A DNA stretch of 22,748 nucleotides from IMG/VR virus record IMGVR_UViG_3300027754_002436, positions 1-22,748 of that record, one strand, 5' to 3'. The notes under the pieces were generated by a model. That model saw nothing but the letters and a program-made list of their open reading frames with translations. It did not search any database and was not told where the DNA came from. Origin of the DNA: a virus. The position numbers were made by a program, and so were the translations under genes. Of this stretch, positions 2,390 through 22,748 are shown in pieces. How positions within the stretch are numbered: position 1 is the first letter of the stretch; the number at the start of each line of letters is the position of its first letter.

Positions 2390-3606
2390 CCTAAATCCCA
2401 TTCTTCATTCCACTTACCAGTTTCAAGATTCCATCTTAGATAAAAACCAAAATGGCTTGCTCGTCTGACCTTGCGTGATACAACCTGAAACAGATCAGAA
2501 TTATATTCACGATGAATCGCCAAAACTAGGTCGGCATCATAAGCCAATTGCTTTGACCATGCTACTTCCTCAAGTTCGGGTGGTCTGTCTCCATGACCTT
2601 CTGCCATAGTTACTGCTGCTACGTCAATAATAGGAATATTGTTTTTAACAGCAATTCTTTTAAAAGCTTTTGAAAGGTTCTTTGCTTTTTCTGTTTCAGT
2701 CTTTGCACCGCTTGAATCATCAAACAGACCATGATAGTCAAGAATAACCATATCTGGTTGGTACTGGTCAATCTTAGCCTGAACCATGTTCTGGTCTGCT
2801 GTCTCAAGCCCCTCTGATGTAATCAGATAGATTGGTTGCTTACCCTCAAAAGTCTTCTCAGCCCATGAAGCATATCTATCCACAATCTTGGCATTGGCTT
2901 TAACAAGGTCAGTATTAGTAAAGTTACCTTCACCATTATTTAATAATGTATCTAGTCTTTGACCTTCTTGGAGTTTATTCATTTCTAATGAAATAATCAT
3001 TGGTCTATAGCCAGCTCGCCAAGCATTAGCAGCAAATAGTCTTGCAATAAAAGACTTGCCAACGCCTGTCCAACCTAGCAACACAATAAAGTCACCAGCC
3101 TGCCAACCACCAAACACTTTATCAATAACACTAATACCGCTGGGGATACCAACAATATCACTATCAGGATTGAGCGAACGTTCACGCAGTTCATTACTAC
3201 GGTCACGCCATTCACCCGCCAAGTCAGTATCCTTTAGATTACTAGAATATTTATACAACTTAGAAGTATTTTCCATTAGATAAGACAAAGCCTCTTTTGG
3301 ACCAAGTTCACCTAAAAGAGAATGAGCCTGGGCAACAATTCTTCTAGTTTGCAAAGCCAAAGATTCTCTCTTAGCCTGTTCAACATAGTAACCTAAAGGC
3401 TCTGTCGCTGTAATAAACTCAAAGTCAGAGAAATGAGATTTAATAGTATCTTTTGATGGTGGTTTACTATGCTTATCGTAATGACTTAGAATAAAATTCC
3501 AGATATCCCGATACTCAGCAAATACACCGTCAACCCCCTCGTTTACAGCGGTAACCATGTCACCGCTTTCAACAATTGAGTTAATCAATCGCATTTCATA
3601 GTTCAT
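2386..3606 (-). CDS. Replicative DNA helicase, DnaB family
   Basis: Hexameric 5'-3' helicase that unwinds the fork and recruits primase. Counting from the ATG at 3606, the protein has 406 residues. The N-terminal part (about 1-120) resembles the DnaB N-terminal helical domain (YEMRLINSIVESGD). The RecA-like motor follows: Walker A GWTGVGKS at about 178-185, the SLEM element with Glu near 208, Walker B MVILDYHG at about 286-293, and a distal ADLVLAIHRE element matching the DnaB motif H4 region. A TTG three codons upstream (3615) is a possible alternative start; the ATG is preferred although its ribosome-binding site is weak. It overlaps the preceding gene by 11 bases and the next by four, so this is a coupled operon. 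Confidence 0.93.
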   Translation of the reverse strand: MNYEMRLINSIVESGDMVTAVNEGVDGVFAEYRDIWNFILSHYDKHSKPPSKDTIKSHFSDFEFITATEPLGYYVEQAKRESLALQTRRIVAQAHSLLGELGPKEALSYLMENTSKLYKYSSNLKDTDLAGEWRDRSNELRERSLNPDSDIVGIPSGISVIDKVFGGWQAGDFIVLLGWTGVGKSFIARLFAANAWRAGYRPMIISLEMNKLQEGQRLDTLLNNGEGNFTNTDLVKANAKIVDRYASWAEKTFEGKQPIYLITSEGLETADQNMVQAKIDQYQPDMVILDYHGLFDDSSGAKTETEKAKNLSKAFKRIAVKNNIPIIDVAAVTMAEGHGDRPPELEEVAWSKQLAYDADLVLAIHREYNSDLFQVVSRKVRRASHFGFYLRWNLETGKWNEEWDLG

Positions 3607-6334: not shown

Positions 6335-6360
6335 GGTTTTGTCAATCGTACCACAAAACC
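6335..6360. promoter_or_regulatory. Inverted repeat just upstream of the phosphoesterase gene
   Basis: GGTTTTGT (6335-6342) and ACAAAACC (6353-6360) are exact reverse complements, 10 bases apart, 13 bases upstream of the start codon and directly before its AGGAGGG site. It lies in the 56-base gap between the HNH and phosphoesterase genes. It may be an operator or a leader hairpin controlling access to the ribosome-binding site. No U-tract follows, so it is not a classical terminator. Confidence 0.35.
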
Positions 6361-14471: not shown

Positions 14472-14866
14472 CCTATATCCTCCAAAGTTATAGATACATC
14501 ATAGTACCTACACTGACTTTGCAAAACATTTTTTAACATATCTTCATTATAAGATGATACAACACAAGTGTATTGTTCCCAATTATCTTTTGAATCTTCT
14601 TGAATTAAAAGAGTAACTAAAGAACCACTAGTAATAAGGGAGTGAATGAAATCACGACCAACTCTTGAATCAACAGTCTTATTTGCCTTATCTGGTAAAT
14701 ATGACCAACTTAAATTAAATACCCTTTTAGAAGGCTTATAGAATCTACGATTTGAACCAGAAGATAACTGCATATCAGTATTATCATAAGTGTTAATAAT
14801 ACTTATTCTTCTATTATGTTCAGTTATTTCAGTTCCATTAATTTTAACAAGTGCATTAAGAGACAT
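14468..14866 (-). CDS. Distal tail-type protein
   Basis: A 132-residue single-domain protein following the tape measure gene, the usual place for the distal tail protein that starts the tail tip. It shares its whole length with the C-terminal half of the next gene (TEHNR, F-x-L-x-WS, TVDS, RDFI). Beta-rich with no Cys pair, signal or membrane segment. Its ATG overlaps the tape measure stop (TAATG) with an AGAGG site upstream, and its own stop overlaps the next start (ATGA). Size is smaller than the classical Dit protein of Gram-positive phages (about 250 residues), closer to small tail-completion or tail-ring proteins. The assignment is by position and fold-like pattern. Confidence 0.7.
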   Translation of the reverse strand: MSLNALVKINGTEITEHNRRISIINTYDNTDMQLSSGSNRRFYKPSKRVFNLSWSYLPDKANKTVDSRVGRDFIHSLITSGSLVTLLIQEDSKDNWEQYTCVVSSYNEDMLKNVLQSQCRYYDVSITLEDIG

Positions 14867-17800
14867 TATCGACCTCTTGCAAGACCAGAATAACTACTAA
14901 TTACTCTATTCTCCATACCAGCAGCCTTTTGTTTTCCGGGGAGAACATTCATATTGTATTGTTTAATCATTGAGTTAAACCATTCATCTTCACCGATAAA
15001 GTTTTCAACATAAATATTTGTTGTAGAAGTAGACGTATGAGAAGTAGCGTTCTGACCAGATATCTGATCTGGCTTATTAAATCTCATATTGTTAAGAGTC
15101 TGTAGAGTTGCCATACCAATATTCTTAACAGCCCCAGCGTTAATAACAAATTCACCACCATGAAGAAGAGCGGGCATACCTTGTGAAGCAAAACCAGGTG
15201 TACCAAATCCACCATAACCGAATCTTGGAACACGACCACCATTAGCCCAACCGCCTCCACCGCCTCCACCGCCACCACTGCTTCCGCCACCGCCAGCAGA
15301 TTGAGTTGTTGTTCCTGCAACCATATTCATAATATTTTTTGCTGGTGTAAAATTATACAATGACAATATATTTCTAATACGAGTAGACATATTGTCTGTG
15401 CCAGCAAAAACCGATTTAGCAGTAGCTACTGTATATTTACCAGTCATAATATCAAAGAATGCTGTTTGCAAATGAGTTCTTATATTTCTTTTTTCAGCAG
15501 TCTCAGACGAGTAGTATGCACCAATTCTTGTTTCAATATCAGTATTGAGTCTTGTTCTTGCTCTTTCAAGAGCAGCACCATACGTACCTCCCGTTGTAGA
15601 GGTAGAAAGATCACCAGCAACAGCCCCTCCAGTAGTATTATTCCCACCAGCACCGCGACCTCCAGCATTTCCGCCTCCGCCTCCTCCACCTCCTCCGCCA
15701 CCGCCTCCGCTACCACCACTGGTAGCATTCTCAATAGCAGTCTGAGCAAGACCAGCATCAACAACAGCCTGAGCAAGTTCAGCAGCCATCTCGTCAACAG
15801 CACTTGCAACATGCCCAACAGTAGAGCGCATCTCATTAAAAATAATTATATTTGCATTCTTAACAGCATCAGTAAACACCTTGAATGGATCGTTGTCAGT
15901 AAACACTGTTTCTATTGCAGTAAGAGCATCAGGAAGAGTTACATCCTTCATAGAAGCAAAAGCAGCAGCAGTGTCAGTTTGAATTTGAGTAAAAATTTCA
16001 CCAAAAGATCCAACTATGCCCTCAGTACTACCAACAATTTGGTTATTGACACCAGCCAACATTCCAATAGTTGAACCAATAATTGTACTATTATCTTCAG
16101 CACTAGTACCAAGACCATACTTTTCAACAGCGGTTGCTACAAGAAGATCAAGACCAGTTGTAAAAGCCCCAACTGTCTGATTTGGCATAACGTCATTAAT
16201 AGTTGTTGCCATACCAGTAATGGCACTAGCAAAATGCTCTCCATTTGTTGTAGCAGCTTCTTGAGCTATTGCATTAAGACCATCAAGTTGAGTCCTGTAT
16301 TCTTCCAAAGTTACTGGAGGAATCTTTGTTATTTCTTTGGCAGCATTTTGGAAATTAGCAATTGTCTCTTCAAAGAACTTTGCAGTCTCATCAGAAGCCA
16401 ACTTAATAGCATCCTTAATAGCATCTCTATTTTCTTGCGCTAAATCTTTTGCCCTACTAGCATCTACTTTTTGGAGAGAAGAAGTGTAGTCTTGATTATT
16501 TTTAAGTTCTTCTAAAGAAAGAACTCTGGCATCATCAATTCTGCCTTCATAAATCGCCAAAGCCCTATTGCGCTGGTAGTTAGCGACCTGTAGAGCACGC
16601 TCTTGAATCATCTGGCGACGTTCAGACTGATATTCCTGCTCCCTTGTTAAAGACTCTTCCGCTTTTTCAAGTTTATTAATAGTTTCAATCTGTGCATCAA
16701 ATACCTTCAAAGCAGCTTCTTTTTGCTTTTCTAAGGCATCAGTCATTCCGCTTGTTGCATCACCCAGTGCTTCAGACAAAGAACCTTGAACAAGATCTAC
16801 AAGTTTTTGAGCAAGACCCTTGAAGGTCTCCATCATCTTTCCAGCAGCAGCATCAGCGAACCCTTCGCCAGCATCACCACCAGCATCAACAAATGGATCA
16901 ACCATTTCTTCAGCAACTTCCTCAGCCCCATCCGCTACAGGCTTCATAAAATCTTTTCCAGCACCCTTGGTTATAGTATTCTTACCAAGACCCATCAAGA
17001 AGGTAGCAAATGTTTTTCCAAGACCAGCAACGCTATCTGAAAAACCGCCAATAAAAGAATTTATTCCATCAGCAATGCCGTTAACGTTTCCAATTAAACC
17101 ATGAAAGAATCCGTCAACTGCACCAGTTAAACCATCAGCAAAACCAGCAACAGAATTCCCAATTCCATCAAAAAATTCAGAAATACCACTAACGCCATCT
17201 TTTAGACCATCAAAGAATCCATCAACAGCGCCTGTCATTCCGTCACCAAAATCAGATACCGAATTACCAATACCATCAAAGAACGATCTAACCTGCGCTC
17301 CCTTCCCAGCAAAATCTGTTTCTGGAATAAGACCCCCAGTAATTGAACTAAAGAAACCACTTACGCCATCAACAGCCCTACCAATTCCTTCAATAAAGCT
17401 GGCAATAAGACCACCCGCAACTCTAATGGCAGCACCTAAAGCATCAGGTATCACTTGAGCAACACGAACCCAAGCCTGAGCAATTACTCTGTAATAATCA
17501 AGAACAAAATTAATAAATGTTTCAATAATACCGCCAGCGACTCTAATACCCATTCCAAGAGCATTAGGAATAAATTCAGCAACACCAGCGATACCATCAG
17601 CAACAAGTCTCCACTCTTGGATAATTAATACAACAAATTTTCTAGTAATATTAACAACAGCAATAAGTGCAAATTCAAAAGCCTGAACAATACCTTCAAC
17701 AACTTTAAAAACTATGTTGGAAATTACTGCAAATACTGGACCAAGGAAAGCAAGAATTGCACCACCCCATTGCACAATTCCACTAAAAATTTGACCAAGA

Positions 17801-20800
17801 CCTTTCTTCCAATCACCCTTAAAAATATTTATGACACCTTTAATAATCTTAACAATTCCCTTTATAATTGTTCCAAGAGCAGTAAGGACACGATATATAA
17901 TCGGAACAACATAATCATCAATAAAACCTTTAATAGCAGTAGCAGCAGTCTTAATTGTTTCAGCTACTACATTAAATGTATTAGCAAGACCCTGAACCTT
18001 CCCCGCACCCTTGTCAGCACCAGCAAAATTAGCAAAGAAATCAAGGAAAGGGGCAAGCAGTGCTTTCCCAATTTCAATTAAAGTTTTTAATGTTGCTTTT
18101 AGAGCATCAATACCAGGCTGAACTTGTGTTTTAATTTTATCAAAATTCTTTACAACAACAAGAACAAGCCCAGCAATCAATAATAAAACTGCACCAATAC
18201 CAATACCTAAGAAAAGAGTTTTTAATTTACTAGTAAATCCAATTGCTTCATTCAAACCACTAGCAAAACCTCTTGCACCGCTCCTCGCTTTGCCAAAAGT
18301 TCCAGGGGCAGACTTACCTAATTTAAGATTCTTTCTTAATAAATCATCTTGAGCAACTCTTGCACTTTGCATTGCTTTACCAAAAGATCTGGCTGGACCA
18401 GAATCAAGAGCTTTAGTTTTTATAGAAGTTCCAATACTAGATGCAAGACTGCCAGCAGTGCCTACTACACCCCCAGGAGCAGCTCTTGCCTTAAGAATGG
18501 CAGAACCAATCCTACCTCTAGCACCGCCTCTAATCAATGTTCTTTGTTGACGGGCTGAAAGAGTTTTTGTTCCAAGGAAAGCTTGACCTTCAGGCCCAAG
18601 ACTAACACCAGCACCAGTTAAAGCCTGTATTCTATCATTTACAATACTATTAAGATCTGCTGTTGATAATCCAGCTAATGCCTTAGTTTTGCTTACAAAA
18701 GATTTTCCTTTACCTTTACCGCCAATAGATCTAAATCTTTTAGACGCTGGGCCATATTGAGAAACTCTTTCGGTACCAGTAAAACCACGTAGCATAGTTG
18801 ATTCTTGACCAAATATTGCACCTGGACCATCAAGTTCTAAGCCAGTTGGGTTCAGCATTTGAGTTCTTGCTAAATTTCTTAAAGCTTCCTTATACATGGT
18901 ATTAGTATTTACGCCCTTTGGCATTTTTGCAAAACGACCACCTTTACGTAGTTGTCTATTGGGCATAGCCATAGGATCAAATTTATGCCCAGTTGTAGCA
19001 AATAATCTTTGCACTTCTTCATCTAATAAATTAATTTGAGCTTTATTAAGAGCAGGACCAGGAATAGCAGTAGGAAATAAATTAGTCAATGCTGCCGTTG
19101 CAGTGGGGGGCGCGGGGGGACCAATAAGTCCACCAGCACCAGAAAGCACTGCGCTTGGTGTAGTAGACGCAGCCATTTTCATAGCATTAGAAGCACTAGC
19201 TTTCATAGCATCAACTTTTGCAACAACATCAGCAGCAGCAGTAGAAGTCTTACTTAAAATACCAGTAAATTGACCAAACTTTTGAGCAATTGAAGCAATC
19301 GGCCCCTTACCACTAGCCAAAGTAGCAACAAGATTAGAAAACTTGCCATTAGTATTAACAATAGTATCGCCAGTTAAAGTTAAACCATTTTTTAAGAAAA
19401 GAAGTTTTTCAGCACCAGCAATAGACTCAATAGTCACATTTCTAATACCAGGAAGCAAACTTGTCAGTCCGCCAAGAGCAACACCAGCAGCCAATCTCAT
19501 CTGACCAAAAATAAACACTAGTGGACCAATCCCAGCAACAAATACCAATACGCCTGCTATAACCTTTTTGATAGTTGGACTTAAACCAGCAAACCACTTA
19601 GTAAATTCTTGAACTTTGATAGCAGCATTTTTAATTGCTGGACCAAACTCTTTAATCATATCTGCTGCAAAGTTTTTAAAAGAGTTCTTTATTTGATCAA
19701 TAGAAAATGAAACAGAAGATTTTGCTTTATCTAATTCTTGAGTAGCAATATCAGAAGCATTAGCAGCACCAGCAAGTTCAATAGCCATTGCTTTACCAGC
19801 TTCACTAGTAATATCCTCAATAGCATTTCTGCCTTTTTCACCTTCAGATTTAATATAATCTCTTAAAGCTTTACGAGCTTTTCTAGCCGTATCAATATCC
19901 GCTTGAGTAACTGCTCTTCCAAGAGAATCAATTTGATCTCCAGCTTTAGCAGCAGCAATTCTAGCAACTACCCCCATATCGGCAACATTTTTAATAGCAG
20001 GAACAGCACTACCAGACATTGCATTAGCAGCAGAAGTAGCATCATTAAAAGATTTAATTAAACCATACTGAGATGACGTTGTATCTTGTAGACCATTTTG
20101 AAAAGCAACTAAATCTTGAATTGGTAGTAACATTCTAGTACCCTGCCTGACACCAAAAAGTTTTGCATAAAATTTTAGAATAGATTCATCACTACCAGTT
20201 TTTTGCAATTCAGCAGTGACATCAATTAAACCTTGAATTGCGGGCATGCCAACGCCTTGAATATTTTCAAAAGCCTGTTTCATTCCTGGAGTAGTTTTTT
20301 CAAAAGCATCCCCCATAGTCGCAAGCATCTTGGCATTAGCCTGAGTGGGGGCAACCATTCTTTGCAAAGAGACTTTAATAGAGTTAGCAGAAGCACCAAC
20401 CTCAATACCAGCAGCTTTCATAGGCGCAAGCATTGCTGCCATTTCTGCAAAAGTAAGACCAAATTGTGTAGCAGCCGCAGAAACTTCAGGAAGCGCATCA
20501 GCCAAATCTTTAAAAGACAATGCTGTTGAGTTTTCAATAGCGTTAAAAAGATATAGACTTGAAGTAACAGATGTCATTGCTGCTTCTTGTTTTGCAGCAG
20601 CACTTGTAAAAGTTCTACCCATCATATCAAATGTTCTCATTGTTCCCAAGAACATTGTCTGCGTTAAAGTCTGAGACTCAGAGACATCCAAGTTACCCAA
20701 AAGAGAAACTTGAGCAGTTACCTTTGTCAACCCAGCAATAACATCAGAAGCATTGATACCAAGTTCAGCAAAGTCACCAGAAACAGCAGTAACTAATTCT

Positions 20801-21495
20801 CTTGATATAGCAAATTCATTGCTAATAGCCAGACTTGCTTTTTCTAGAGCTTGCATGCGTGTTGTAGTCTTATCAAGTTCAACACCAAGCGACTTAAAAC
20901 CAGCAATTTCGTTTGCACCAGGGACAGCCTGACCTAGACTGCCTAACAACTTAGTTAATCTAATAGTTTCTTTATCTAAAGAATAAAAAGCAGATAAAGC
21001 TTTCCTACCAAATGCTAACAATGGCATTGTCAAACCAATAATCAAACTTCTACCGACGAATTGAGCATCTTTACCCAATCGTCGCATCTCAAGACCGACA
21101 CCTCTAAGATCAGATATCAAAGCCTTAGCCTTAATATTCTTAAGGTTCTTATTAGCCAATGCTAAATCTTTAGTAAGACCACCCATCCCAAGGGAATTAG
21201 TGCTAGCTAAAGAAACTTTCAGCCCTTTAAGATTTAATGTTGTCTTTCTAATTTCAGCGCTTAAAGTAGATTGATTAGCAATCAATTGACGCATTGATTT
21301 AGCATGCTGACCAAGAGAAGACCCTGTATTACCCAGAGCAGCATTAAGAGAACGCTGACGAGCATCAAGATTTCTGACAGAGCGGATATTACCATCCGCA
21401 GCAAGAACTAGTGACCGTAAAGAGGCCGATAATCTTTGTATATCTTCTTCGCCAGTAGCTTTAAGAATTACATCAATTTCAACTTTTTCAGCCAT
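14866..21495 (-). CDS. Tail tape measure protein
   Basis: A 2209-residue protein that sets tail length and helps DNA pass the membrane. The N-terminus is a helical coiled region (about 1-150). A TP901-type tape measure core follows, with a characteristic block around 328-384 (ADALPEVSAAATQFGLT, APTQANA). Hydrophobic segments lie near 640-665, 1091-1117 and 1246-1298. Internal repeats occur at about 1305-1370 (40-residue unit with PNALG/PDALG...IRVAGG) and about 1400-1465 (36-residue unit with GLTGAVDGFF). A coiled coil rich in Lys, Glu and Gln lies at about 1580-1690; two poly-Gly linkers lie near 1930 and 2070; the C-terminus has ALLHGGEFVINAGAVKNIG, a common tape measure end motif. By the usual rule of about 0.15 nm per residue the tail would be roughly 330 nm. 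Its ribosome-binding site is weak (GGTGA). Confidence 0.95.
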   Translation of the reverse strand: MAEKVEIDVILKATGEEDIQRLSASLRSLVLAADGNIRSVRNLDARQRSLNAALGNTGSSLGQHAKSMRQLIANQSTLSAEIRKTTLNLKGLKVSLASTNSLGMGGLTKDLALANKNLKNIKAKALISDLRGVGLEMRRLGKDAQFVGRSLIIGLTMPLLAFGRKALSAFYSLDKETIRLTKLLGSLGQAVPGANEIAGFKSLGVELDKTTTRMQALEKASLAISNEFAISRELVTAVSGDFAELGINASDVIAGLTKVTAQVSLLGNLDVSESQTLTQTMFLGTMRTFDMMGRTFTSAAAKQEAAMTSVTSSLYLFNAIENSTALSFKDLADALPEVSAAATQFGLTFAEMAAMLAPMKAAGIEVGASANSIKVSLQRMVAPTQANAKMLATMGDAFEKTTPGMKQAFENIQGVGMPAIQGLIDVTAELQKTGSDESILKFYAKLFGVRQGTRMLLPIQDLVAFQNGLQDTTSSQYGLIKSFNDATSAANAMSGSAVPAIKNVADMGVVARIAAAKAGDQIDSLGRAVTQADIDTARKARKALRDYIKSEGEKGRNAIEDITSEAGKAMAIELAGAANASDIATQELDKAKSSVSFSIDQIKNSFKNFAADMIKEFGPAIKNAAIKVQEFTKWFAGLSPTIKKVIAGVLVFVAGIGPLVFIFGQMRLAAGVALGGLTSLLPGIRNVTIESIAGAEKLLFLKNGLTLTGDTIVNTNGKFSNLVATLASGKGPIASIAQKFGQFTGILSKTSTAAADVVAKVDAMKASASNAMKMAASTTPSAVLSGAGGLIGPPAPPTATAALTNLFPTAIPGPALNKAQINLLDEEVQRLFATTGHKFDPMAMPNRQLRKGGRFAKMPKGVNTNTMYKEALRNLARTQMLNPTGLELDGPGAIFGQESTMLRGFTGTERVSQYGPASKRFRSIGGKGKGKSFVSKTKALAGLSTADLNSIVNDRIQALTGAGVSLGPEGQAFLGTKTLSARQQRTLIRGGARGRIGSAILKARAAPGGVVGTAGSLASSIGTSIKTKALDSGPARSFGKAMQSARVAQDDLLRKNLKLGKSAPGTFGKARSGARGFASGLNEAIGFTSKLKTLFLGIGIGAVLLLIAGLVLVVVKNFDKIKTQVQPGIDALKATLKTLIEIGKALLAPFLDFFANFAGADKGAGKVQGLANTFNVVAETIKTAATAIKGFIDDYVVPIIYRVLTALGTIIKGIVKIIKGVINIFKGDWKKGLGQIFSGIVQWGGAILAFLGPVFAVISNIVFKVVEGIVQAFEFALIAVVNITRKFVVLIIQEWRLVADGIAGVAEFIPNALGMGIRVAGGIIETFINFVLDYYRVIAQAWVRVAQVIPDALGAAIRVAGGLIASFIEGIGRAVDGVSGFFSSITGGLIPETDFAGKGAQVRSFFDGIGNSVSDFGDGMTGAVDGFFDGLKDGVSGISEFFDGIGNSVAGFADGLTGAVDGFFHGLIGNVNGIADGINSFIGGFSDSVAGLGKTFATFLMGLGKNTITKGAGKDFMKPVADGAEEVAEEMVDPFVDAGGDAGEGFADAAAGKMMETFKGLAQKLVDLVQGSLSEALGDATSGMTDALEKQKEAALKVFDAQIETINKLEKAEESLTREQEYQSERRQMIQERALQVANYQRNRALAIYEGRIDDARVLSLEELKNNQDYTSSLQKVDASRAKDLAQENRDAIKDAIKLASDETAKFFEETIANFQNAAKEITKIPPVTLEEYRTQLDGLNAIAQEAATTNGEHFASAITGMATTINDVMPNQTVGAFTTGLDLLVATAVEKYGLGTSAEDNSTIIGSTIGMLAGVNNQIVGSTEGIVGSFGEIFTQIQTDTAAAFASMKDVTLPDALTAIETVFTDNDPFKVFTDAVKNANIIIFNEMRSTVGHVASAVDEMAAELAQAVVDAGLAQTAIENATSGGSGGGGGGGGGGGGGNAGGRGAGGNNTTGGAVAGDLSTSTTGGTYGAALERARTRLNTDIETRIGAYYSSETAEKRNIRTHLQTAFFDIMTGKYTVATAKSVFAGTDNMSTRIRNILSLYNFTPAKNIMNMVAGTTTQSAGGGGSSGGGGGGGGGWANGGRVPRFGYGGFGTPGFASQGMPALLHGGEFVINAGAVKNIGMATLQTLNNMRFNKPDQISGQNATSHTSTSTTNIYVENFIGEDEWFNSMIKQYNMNVLPGKQKAAGMENRVISSYSGLARGR
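15251..15297 (-). repeat. Poly-glycine codon tract, C-terminal copy
   Basis: A run of GGN codons (interrupted by Ser) near residue 2070 of the tape measure protein. Synonymous codons vary (GGT, GGC, GGA), so it is not a pure microsatellite; it probably encodes a flexible linker before the conserved C-terminal end motif. Confidence 0.8.
15671..15718 (-). repeat. Poly-glycine codon tract, upstream copy
   Basis: Thirteen or so consecutive Gly codons near residue 1930 of the tape measure protein, again with mixed synonymous codons. It separates the helical body from a folded segment of about 110 residues. The C+G-rich tract creates long spurious open frames on the opposite strand. Confidence 0.8.
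17105..17285 (-). repeat. 108-bp direct repeat in the tape measure gene
   Basis: About 72 bases starting AAGAATCC at 17105 recur 108 bases later (17213-17285) with scattered substitutions. They encode the 36-residue unit DGIGNSV...GLTGAVDGFF. Older, weaker copies seem to continue on both sides. The unit may form an amphipathic segment. Confidence 0.7.
17402..17577 (-). repeat. 120-bp spaced repeat in the tape measure gene
   Basis: The segments at 17402-17457 and 17522-17577 are similar and exactly 120 bases apart, coding for IPDALGAAIRVAGG and IPNALGMGIRVAGG. This 40-residue periodicity lies next to the hydrophobic region at about residues 1246-1298. Confidence 0.7.
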
Positions 21496-21539: not shown

Positions 21540-22168
21540 TCAACTAGGTGCTTCATATCCAAGACCAATAGGCAAGAATCTAAAGTCACTAGCCCCTAAT
21601 GTCGGGATTTCCTTAGGCGGTGCAGGATCATACCAATCATCATCCCAATCAACATCAGCACCCATAGATGCAGCTTGTGATTTAAGATTCATAGTGAATT
21701 GATCATTGGCTGCTCTATATAAAAGAAACAATTCTTCTAACGTTAATTGTTCTTCTAATTCAAATATGTTCTTCCAAGCAGCACATCTTACAAAGAGTTC
21801 TGCTTCATATTTAAGGAGGGGAATGTCAGACCACTCAAGGCCTTCTCCACCATCACCCTCCTTTACAGATTTGGGTCGTTACCCATAGCAGCAGCCATGA
21901 GCAAACTGAAACACCTTAAATCCAAAATATCTTCCAAAGCATCAGCATCACCAGCGAGTTCTGGATCAACCTTTGCCAAAGCAATAGAGGCTGCTTCAAC
22001 CATCTTGTCAATATCTTCATCCGACATTTCGGCATCGGAACGAACCTGCAACTGATTAGCTACCTTCATAAACTTGCGAAGCTGCCTAATTGTCAAAGGC
22101 TTAATAATTCTTTTCTTACCATCAGCAAAAACAATTTCCTGACCTGCGTGTAAATCTTTGTTTGTCAT
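21540..22168 (-). CDS. Tail assembly chaperone, long form (GT-type, -1 frameshift product)
   Basis: Predicted fusion made when ribosomes slip back one base at CCCAAAT (21869-21875). The first 100 residues are those of the short form; reading then continues in the -1 frame as SVKEGDGGEGLEW for 109 more residues to the TGA at 21540, 209 in total. The extension is open all the way, has a well-formed protein sequence (WSDIPLLKYEAELF, and an acidic WDDDWYDP segment), and has no ATG or GTG start close to its beginning, so independent translation is unlikely. In lambda and other siphophages gpGT links the tape measure protein to tail tube subunits. Position directly before the tape measure gene fits exactly. 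Coordinates span both frames; base 21869 is read twice. Confidence 0.85.
21813..21863 (-). promoter_or_regulatory. Hairpin downstream of the slippery site (frameshift stimulator)
   Basis: In the transcript AAGGAGGG (complement of 21856-21863) pairs perfectly over 8 bp with CCCTCCTT (complement of 21813-21820), closing a loop of about 35 bases. Five bases separate the slippery heptamer from the stem, the usual spacing for a -1 frameshift stimulator. The stem hides a Shine-Dalgarno-like AGGAGG, which limits start-up at the mini frame behind it. Confidence 0.6.
21863..22168 (-). CDS. Tail assembly chaperone, short form (G-type)
   Basis: A 101-residue acidic, helical protein between tail tube and tape measure genes, the standard place for the gpG-like chaperone that coats the tape measure protein during tail assembly. 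A conserved-looking FADGKKRIIKPLTIRQLRKF segment (about 14-33) is followed by an acidic helix and a hydrophobic Ala/Met-rich end (AAAMG) at the slip site. I chose the ATG at 22168 because AAGGA lies five bases before it; an in-frame ATG two codons upstream (22174) and a TTG at 22192 are poorly spaced. It ends at TAA 21865-21863, three bases after the slippery heptamer. A strong terminator lies upstream at 22194-22227. Confidence 0.88.
   Translation of the reverse strand: MTNKDLHAGQEIVFADGKKRIIKPLTIRQLRKFMKVANQLQVRSDAEMSDEDIDKMVEAASIALAKVDPELAGDADALEDILDLRCFSLLMAAAMGNDPNL
21869..21875 (-). other. Slippery heptamer CCCAAAT for -1 frameshifting
   Basis: In the short-form frame the bases read C CCA AAT, matching the X XXY YYZ rule for tandem -1 slippage; after the slip both tRNAs re-pair on CCC and AAA. 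It sits one sense codon before the short form's stop, exactly where siphophage G/GT shifts are found. Confidence 0.85.
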
Positions 22169-22193
22169 ATCCATCCTTGTTATAAACGGCAAA

Positions 22194-22227
22194 AAGCCTC
22201 AGATGTATTTTACCACATCTGAGGCTT
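22194..22227 (-). terminator. Intrinsic terminator after the tail tube gene
   Basis: A perfect 13-bp stem (22194-22206 with 22215-22227) with an 8-base loop, followed in the minus-strand transcript by a run of five T (22195-22191). It lies between the tail tube gene stop and the chaperone start. It probably lets most transcripts end after the abundant tail tube gene, with read-through supplying the less needed tail genes. Confidence 0.9.
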
Positions 22228-22251: not shown

Positions 22252-22748
22252 TCACGTTTGGTCAATAATTTTGCCGTATTCATATCCTACGTCAGCACTA
22301 ACAGGAAGAATTCTGAAAGAAACAGCGAAAACTGTTGCCTCTGCTCTCTTCATGCTGATTGTTGACGATTCCATAGAAATGGCTCGCTTTGTATTAAACT
22401 TACGTGTCTTAGTGGTTGAAGCATCCGAACCGACAGCGTTTCCAACAATCTGGATAGCCTTTTCGTAAGGATAAACATTCTGAACACCGAACAAGAAAGT
22501 TCTAGTGTTAGCACCATCATTATTAGAAATAATGTCTGCTCCACCAGTTGTGCTATCATAACTCCATGACATAGCAAGGTTATTCAAAGTAGCTTCAGCA
22601 AGAGTCGTCTTGACCATCACCTTAACCTTTGATTGAATAACTTTAGCAGCATCTCCGTACTGATCAACTTCAATGTCAACCATATCTGGTTCCCATGAAA
22701 TTTCAACTCCACCTTGAGTACCGCCGACCGAAGTCAACGAATCAAAGT
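22252..22748 (-). CDS. Major tail tube protein, 5' end missing
   Basis: The frame is open from the window edge to the TGA at 22252-22254; about 165 residues are visible and the true start lies outside. An in-frame TTG at 22737 is not a convincing start because open sequence continues upstream. The protein is beta-rich with no Cys or membrane segment: a GGVEISWEPDMVDIEVDQYG strand pair (about 10-30 of the visible part) resembles the beginning of phage tail tube proteins, and a Ser/Thr-rich beta half with MESSTISMKRAEATVFAVSF follows. Hexamers of such proteins stack to form the tail tube around the tape measure protein. Position before the G/GT chaperone and a strong terminator supports this. 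A tail terminator or other tail protein is less likely. Confidence 0.78.
   Translation of the reverse strand, partial: FDSLTSVGGTQGGVEISWEPDMVDIEVDQYGDAAKVIQSKVKVMVKTTLAEATLNNLAMSWSYDSTTGGADIISNNDGANTRTFLFGVQNVYPYEKAIQIVGNAVGSDASTTKTRKFNTKRAISMESSTISMKRAEATVFAVSFRILPVSADVGYEYGKIIDQT

Follow-up and report, generated by a model that had tools for sequence, protein, structure and literature searches.

In phage lambda, the slip site of the tail assembly chaperone gene is GGGAAAG. Like lambda G/GT (Levin 1993; Xu 2004, 2013, 2014, cited in PMC5009743), the locus described here is flanked by the genes for the major tail protein and the tape measure protein, and it would share the -1 direction of the shift and the production of G and GT from one start. 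Its slip site is a different one, CCCAAAT, and is followed by a hairpin for which the support is good. Lambda wants a low rate of GT, 30:1 (PMC5009743). In E. coli assays, C_CCA_AAG is among the strongest sites, with CCCAAAG/AAG-ending heptamers far more efficient, AAR codons slipping better than AAY and the heterogeneous A-site codons AAU and AAC being weaker (PMC4066793).

Frameshifting of this kind is well known in phages, and the present locus, from an uncultured, long-tailed phage (its tape measure protein counts 2209 amino acids), is a well-supported further case and not a new mechanism. The whole stretch of DNA that was analysed, an IMG/VR record of 22748 bases, is called the window. 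An earlier note, made from its letters, had proposed that a programmed -1 frameshift gives rise to G and GT tail chaperones, and on sequence grounds we consider such a lambda G/GT-type shift highly probable, because 61 homologous regions conserve slip site, second frame and hairpin, and because gene order and joined annotations in isolated phages agree with it. The window combines the gene place, an overlapping -1 open reading frame without a start and an in-frame heptamer with conservation, homology to known chaperones and a downstream RNA structure, the last being a common and not an obligatory mark of these systems. A gene caller will overlook the GT fusion.

The chaperone locus and its neighbours

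On the minus strand, the major tail protein gene is followed by G/T, the tape measure protein gene and further genes (Table 1), among which one encodes a protein with CBM and PA14 domains and another a protein ending in a Peptidase_S74 chaperone domain. The slot that G/T occupies is the standard place of tail assembly chaperones. The major tail protein gene, which is probably truncated with its 5' end near the contig edge, also has weaker matches to PHROG major tail protein families, and its best family, PHROG 2175 ('protein with Ig domain'), is the one annotated at the same position in Streptomyces relatives. Within the tape measure gene, positions 15545-15745 (minus strand) hold a long glycine-rich run, a low-complexity linker in the protein.

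Table 1 Features of the chaperone locus in the window
Feature	Position	Strand	Basis
Major tail protein gene, directly upstream of G	22252..22737	minus	PHROG 2175, E 6e-25
G gene, tail assembly chaperone short form	21863..22174	minus	ORF, PHROG, AF2 model, BFVD
Nearest upstream -1-frame stop, TAA	21879..21881	minus	sequence
Slippery heptamer C_CCA_AAT	21869..21875	minus	in frame; conserved in relatives
G 0-frame stop codon TAA	21863..21865	minus	sequence
T extension, 109 codons + TGA (21542-21540), read after -1 shift	21540..21869	minus	ORF, without own start
Candidate stimulatory hairpin	21813..21863	minus	arms AAGGAGGG (21863-21856) and CCCTCCTT (21820-21813), plus inner helix
Tape measure protein gene, directly downstream of G/T	14866..21495	minus	Pfam PhageMin_Tail 8e-11, PHROG tape measure 5e-33

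The G protein has 101 amino acids when started from the ATG at 22168 and 103 from the ATG at 22174, and it matches PHROG 10504 (E 1e-11), while the T frame matches PHROG 10474 (E 1e-4). Its AF2 model (pLDDT 84) retrieved a 'Tail assembly chaperone' from BFVD (E 6e-12, 66% identical). The best PDB match of the model was the HK97 tail assembly chaperone 2ob9, a protein of similar size, with a TM-score of about 0.42, 15% identity and a non-significant E-value (0.44), so that this likeness between structures, one of them predicted, is suggestive only. The match of G to Pfam Phage_TAC_19 was below the cut-off.

At the DNA level the window gave no match to isolated phages, distant mode included. By tblastn, G hit 118 phage records, 116 of Streptomyces and two of Rhodococcus phages; the T extension, being too diverged, had no match in this phage collection. 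A prophage or host search among genome contigs found no relative, and we infer an actinobacterial host only from the fact that the relatives infect Streptomyces and Rhodococcus. G is homologous, at about 30-36% identity, to its counterparts in Stanwilliamsviridae (Streptomyces phages Yaboi, Stigma, Emma1919, Annadreamy and Francob) and, at 43% over a 37-residue stretch, to that of Rhodococcus phage Francesca, all of which have the gene order of the window (major tail protein, chaperone, tape measure). In Yaboi, Stigma, Emma1919 and Francesca, a joined CDS annotated 'tail assembly chaperone' follows the gene of the major tail protein (or of its family) and precedes that of the tape measure protein.

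Slip site, second frame and downstream hairpin

The 3' end of G reads GGT AAC GAC CCA AAT CTG TAA, in which CCCAAAT is phased as X_XXY_YYZ and followed by one sense codon (CTG) and the stop, just as the earlier note had described it. Its further readings of the letters also hold: the -1 frame is open for 109 codons, the N-S junction falls after residue 100 when counted from the ATG at 22168, and a 5-base spacer (CTGTA) leads to a perfect 8-bp stem (AAGGAGGG/CCCTCCTT). Since the nearest upstream stop in the -1 frame lies so close, any -1 fusion is confined to about 16 nt, and the heptamer is inside that gap. Among the other genes of the window, in-frame X_XXY_YYZ heptamers occupy 22 of 5138 codon positions (0.43%), and the chance of finding one within the roughly four available codons is p ~0.017. 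CCCAAAT as such is not rare in the window (two seen, 3.7 expected), so the weight rests on its position and frame.

Homologues were collected by a protein scan of viral contigs, which gave 39 loci, and an alignment-based scan, which gave 80 more; the sets overlap, and together they collapse to 61 distinct regions. In 48 of these, an in-frame CCCAAAC/T (CCCAAAC in 44, CCCAAAT in four) stands at the same place at the end of G, and the remaining 13 have C_CCT_TCC (GAC CCT TCC T) there. The comparison of homologues called for in the earlier note thus finds CCCAAAC/T kept in place and frame in most regions, and the note's view of CCCAAAT as a less common site does not apply within this phage's family, which normally has CCCAAA[C/T]. 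CCA is preceded by C in 48/48 regions, even where the Asp residue becomes Ala, Asn or Ser, while GAC makes up only 34% of Asp codons elsewhere; likewise the Pro codon is CCA in 48/48 against a background of 42%. Codon choice at the slip site being this far from background, the constraint acts on nucleotides and not on residues. The T frame is kept in all 61 regions and, wherever the contig is long enough, extends at least about 104 codons beyond the stop of G. Its pN/pS against relatives is 0.28-0.60 (for the near-identical L002/L003, pN 0.015-0.019 and pS 0.16-0.19), values that place it under purifying selection; the arrangement is conserved among homologues with both frames under such selection, as judged for T from pN/pS and for G from protein conservation.

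The hairpin begins 5 bases past the slip site, and its 58-nt fold has a predicted energy of -23.4 kcal/mol (z -3.3), with 0 of 200 shuffles as stable. Against a null in which synonymous codons were redrawn in the -1 frame, leaving the protein unchanged, the hairpin lies below the null mean in 58 of 60 regions, with a mean z of about -2.9 overall, -2.76 in the CCCAAA class and -3.21 in the CCCTTCC class. Across relatives, the usual distance from the heptamer to the 5' arm is 5-8 nt. RNAalifold on one MAFFT alignment of the relatives recovered no consensus pairing, since the register of the helix differs from one relative to the next, and a register-free arm-swap test took the place of the fixed-column consensus fold: native arms scored 20.5 against 17.3 (sd 0.4) for swapped arms, a difference reached in 0 of 5000 permutations, with relatedness not fully controlled. 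The homologue comparison proposed in the earlier note is therefore favourable for the stem also, with the qualification that its register shifts.

These results bear on the alternative that the hairpin is a by-product of coding, in which acidic and glycine codons happen to face conserved Pro-Leu-Leu codons and the structure has no part in slippage. Its 3' arm does overlap the invariant PLL codons, its 5' arm is purine-rich, and a few relatives are weakly structured (L008, L111 and L056, of which L008 and L111 show no hairpin above the synonymous-codon expectation). Both the synonymous-codon null and the arm-swap test, the latter within its limits, argue against this alternative, which we regard as unlikely; as far as sequences can tell, the strength of the hairpin goes far beyond what protein coding would account for, and its arms coevolve.

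Less likely still, and largely refuted, is the production of T as a separate protein, either by termination-reinitiation or by internal initiation from the Shine-Dalgarno-like AGGAGGG past the stop. AGGAGGG is found right at the G stop codon, and in one relative (L018, positions 3295-3299) TGATG makes a T-frame ATG overlap the stop of G. In the window, however, the T frame has no ATG, GTG or TTG over its first 45 codons, and the ATG/GTG codons beside AGGAGGG are in the 0 frame and lead to a 21-codon dead end. Although 30 of the 61 regions have a Shine-Dalgarno-like stretch, a T-frame start 3-12 nt downstream of it is present in 0 of 61. There is thus no start for the Shine-Dalgarno-like stem to block, as the earlier note had suggested it might, and the case which that note named as contrary to frameshifting, a homologue whose T has its own start and ribosome-binding site, was not found among the 61 regions, L018 having a TGATG that would permit reinitiation. 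In that relative, TGATG could allow reinitiation alongside frameshifting.

That a sequencing error or a real indel has split one gene, as might be feared of a single metagenomic contig, is refuted by the relatives and has hardly any probability left, the same two-frame layout and slip site recurring across many samples, in 61 distinct regions, as well as in Streptomyces phage isolates. Transcriptional slippage would yield the same fusion protein and is just as improbable, since it needs long homopolymer runs, whereas the runs at this site are CCC and AAA and give way to CCCTTCC or CCCGGAA in relatives, and since it leaves the conserved hairpin 5-8 nt downstream unexplained.

Under programmed -1 frameshifting, most ribosomes would stop at TAA and release the short chaperone G, and a minority, slowed by the hairpin, would slip one base back on C_CCA_AAT, with tRNA-Pro re-pairing from CCA to CCC and tRNA-Asn from AAU to AAA. 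Reading would then continue as TCT GTA AAG... for 109 further codons, giving a GT fusion of about 209-211 amino acids, for which the predicted tryptic peptide across the G-T junction is CFSLLMAAAMGNDPNSVK, or ...NDPK if slippage precedes decoding of the A-site codon. If the roles known from phage lambda apply here, the tape measure protein would be coated by G, the T part would bring in the major tail protein, and both chaperones would be missing from the virion. The occurrence of slippage, its frequency and the chaperone roles are what we infer. With AAU/AAC A-site codons being weaker in the E. coli assays, the rate in the phage's host is uncertain; slippage on CCCAAAY may be modest, in keeping with lambda's low rate of GT.

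Possible exchange of slip sites among relatives

At the homologous position, Streptomyces phages Francob, Annadreamy, Stigma, Emma1919 and Blueeyedbeauty have CCCAAAT exactly as in the window, whereas CCCGGAA is found in Yaboi, Mildred21, Coruscant, Tomas, Jay2Jay and TomSawyer, and GGGAAAA in Rhodococcus phage Francesca. In the Streptomyces phages, 12-18 further G codons separate the slip site from the stop, compared to one in the window, and those with CCCAAAT have a -1-frame TGA directly before CCC.

Among the metagenomic regions, GACCCTTCCT is invariant at the end of G in 13 loci (L011, L048, L087, L093, L107, L109, L112, L113, L116, L117, L118, L122 and L124). In these, CCCAAAC/T is replaced by an apparent slip site, CCCTTCC, which is not an X_XXY_YYZ heptamer, and the Ser codon is TCC in 13/13 against a background of 7%. 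L109 has a -1-frame TGA right before CCC and the G stop right after TCC, so that any -1 fusion there must use CCCTTCC. This heptamer sits at two places on the tree, though it may still have a single origin (AU test, p 0.06).

CCCGGAA is the commonest form of the hypothetical 'threetwotwo' motif (XXXYYZZ) of PRFect, which was proposed from annotation (PMC10885494). Both CCCTTCC (13 relatives) and CCCGGAA (the Yaboi group) fit XXXYYZZ as it is given there, and the window differs in having the canonical X_XXY_YYZ; a mention of CCCTTCC was not found in the excerpts of that paper. We think it reasonably likely that the phage family swaps CCCAAAC/T for XXXYYZZ sites at a single homologous codon position (CCCTTCC in 13/61 metagenomic regions, CCCGGAA in several Streptomyces phages), with the -1 frame retained, as is the hairpin in the metagenomic set, and that selection thereby maintains -1 slippage in which the A-site tRNA would re-pair only via a middle G-U wobble. 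If this is true, slippery-site rules are broader than X_XXY_YYZ. The about 60 distinct relatives form a natural experiment in which CCCAAAC, CCCAAAT, CCCTTCC, CCCGGAA and GGGAAAA vary at a fixed position, and this series permits direct testing of the heptamers that host ribosomes accept.

A hairpin upstream of the chaperone gene

In the gap that separates G from the major tail protein gene, the minus strand of the window holds a terminator-like hairpin of at least 13 perfect pairs (22194-22227), whose loop contains an extended -10-like motif, TGGTAAAAT (22215-22207). Hairpins of about -21 kcal/mol or stronger surround this motif in 53 of the 61 homologous regions; their stems have diverged and the loop motif TGNTATA(A/C)T is conserved. 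Judged by its sequence, the element may be a promoter lying within a terminator, or else a sigma-dependent pause site; a description of such a nested hairpin and -10-like element was not found in a literature search.

Streptomyces phages (L041, L043, L127, L130 and L133, and L042, L044 and L128) have a separate terminator-like hairpin some 120 nt before the chaperone gene and, a few tens of nucleotides past it, TGATATAAT, TGCTATAAT, TGGTAAACT or a similar stretch. In the Streptomyces relatives inspected, the terminator-like hairpin and a TGNTAnAnT-like motif thus appear to lie side by side and not nested, the situation in Francesca being unclear. Elsewhere on the minus strand of the window, near 6353 at the start of a 401-aa gene, an imperfect hairpin has TGGTACGAT in its loop and may be another copy of the nested element.
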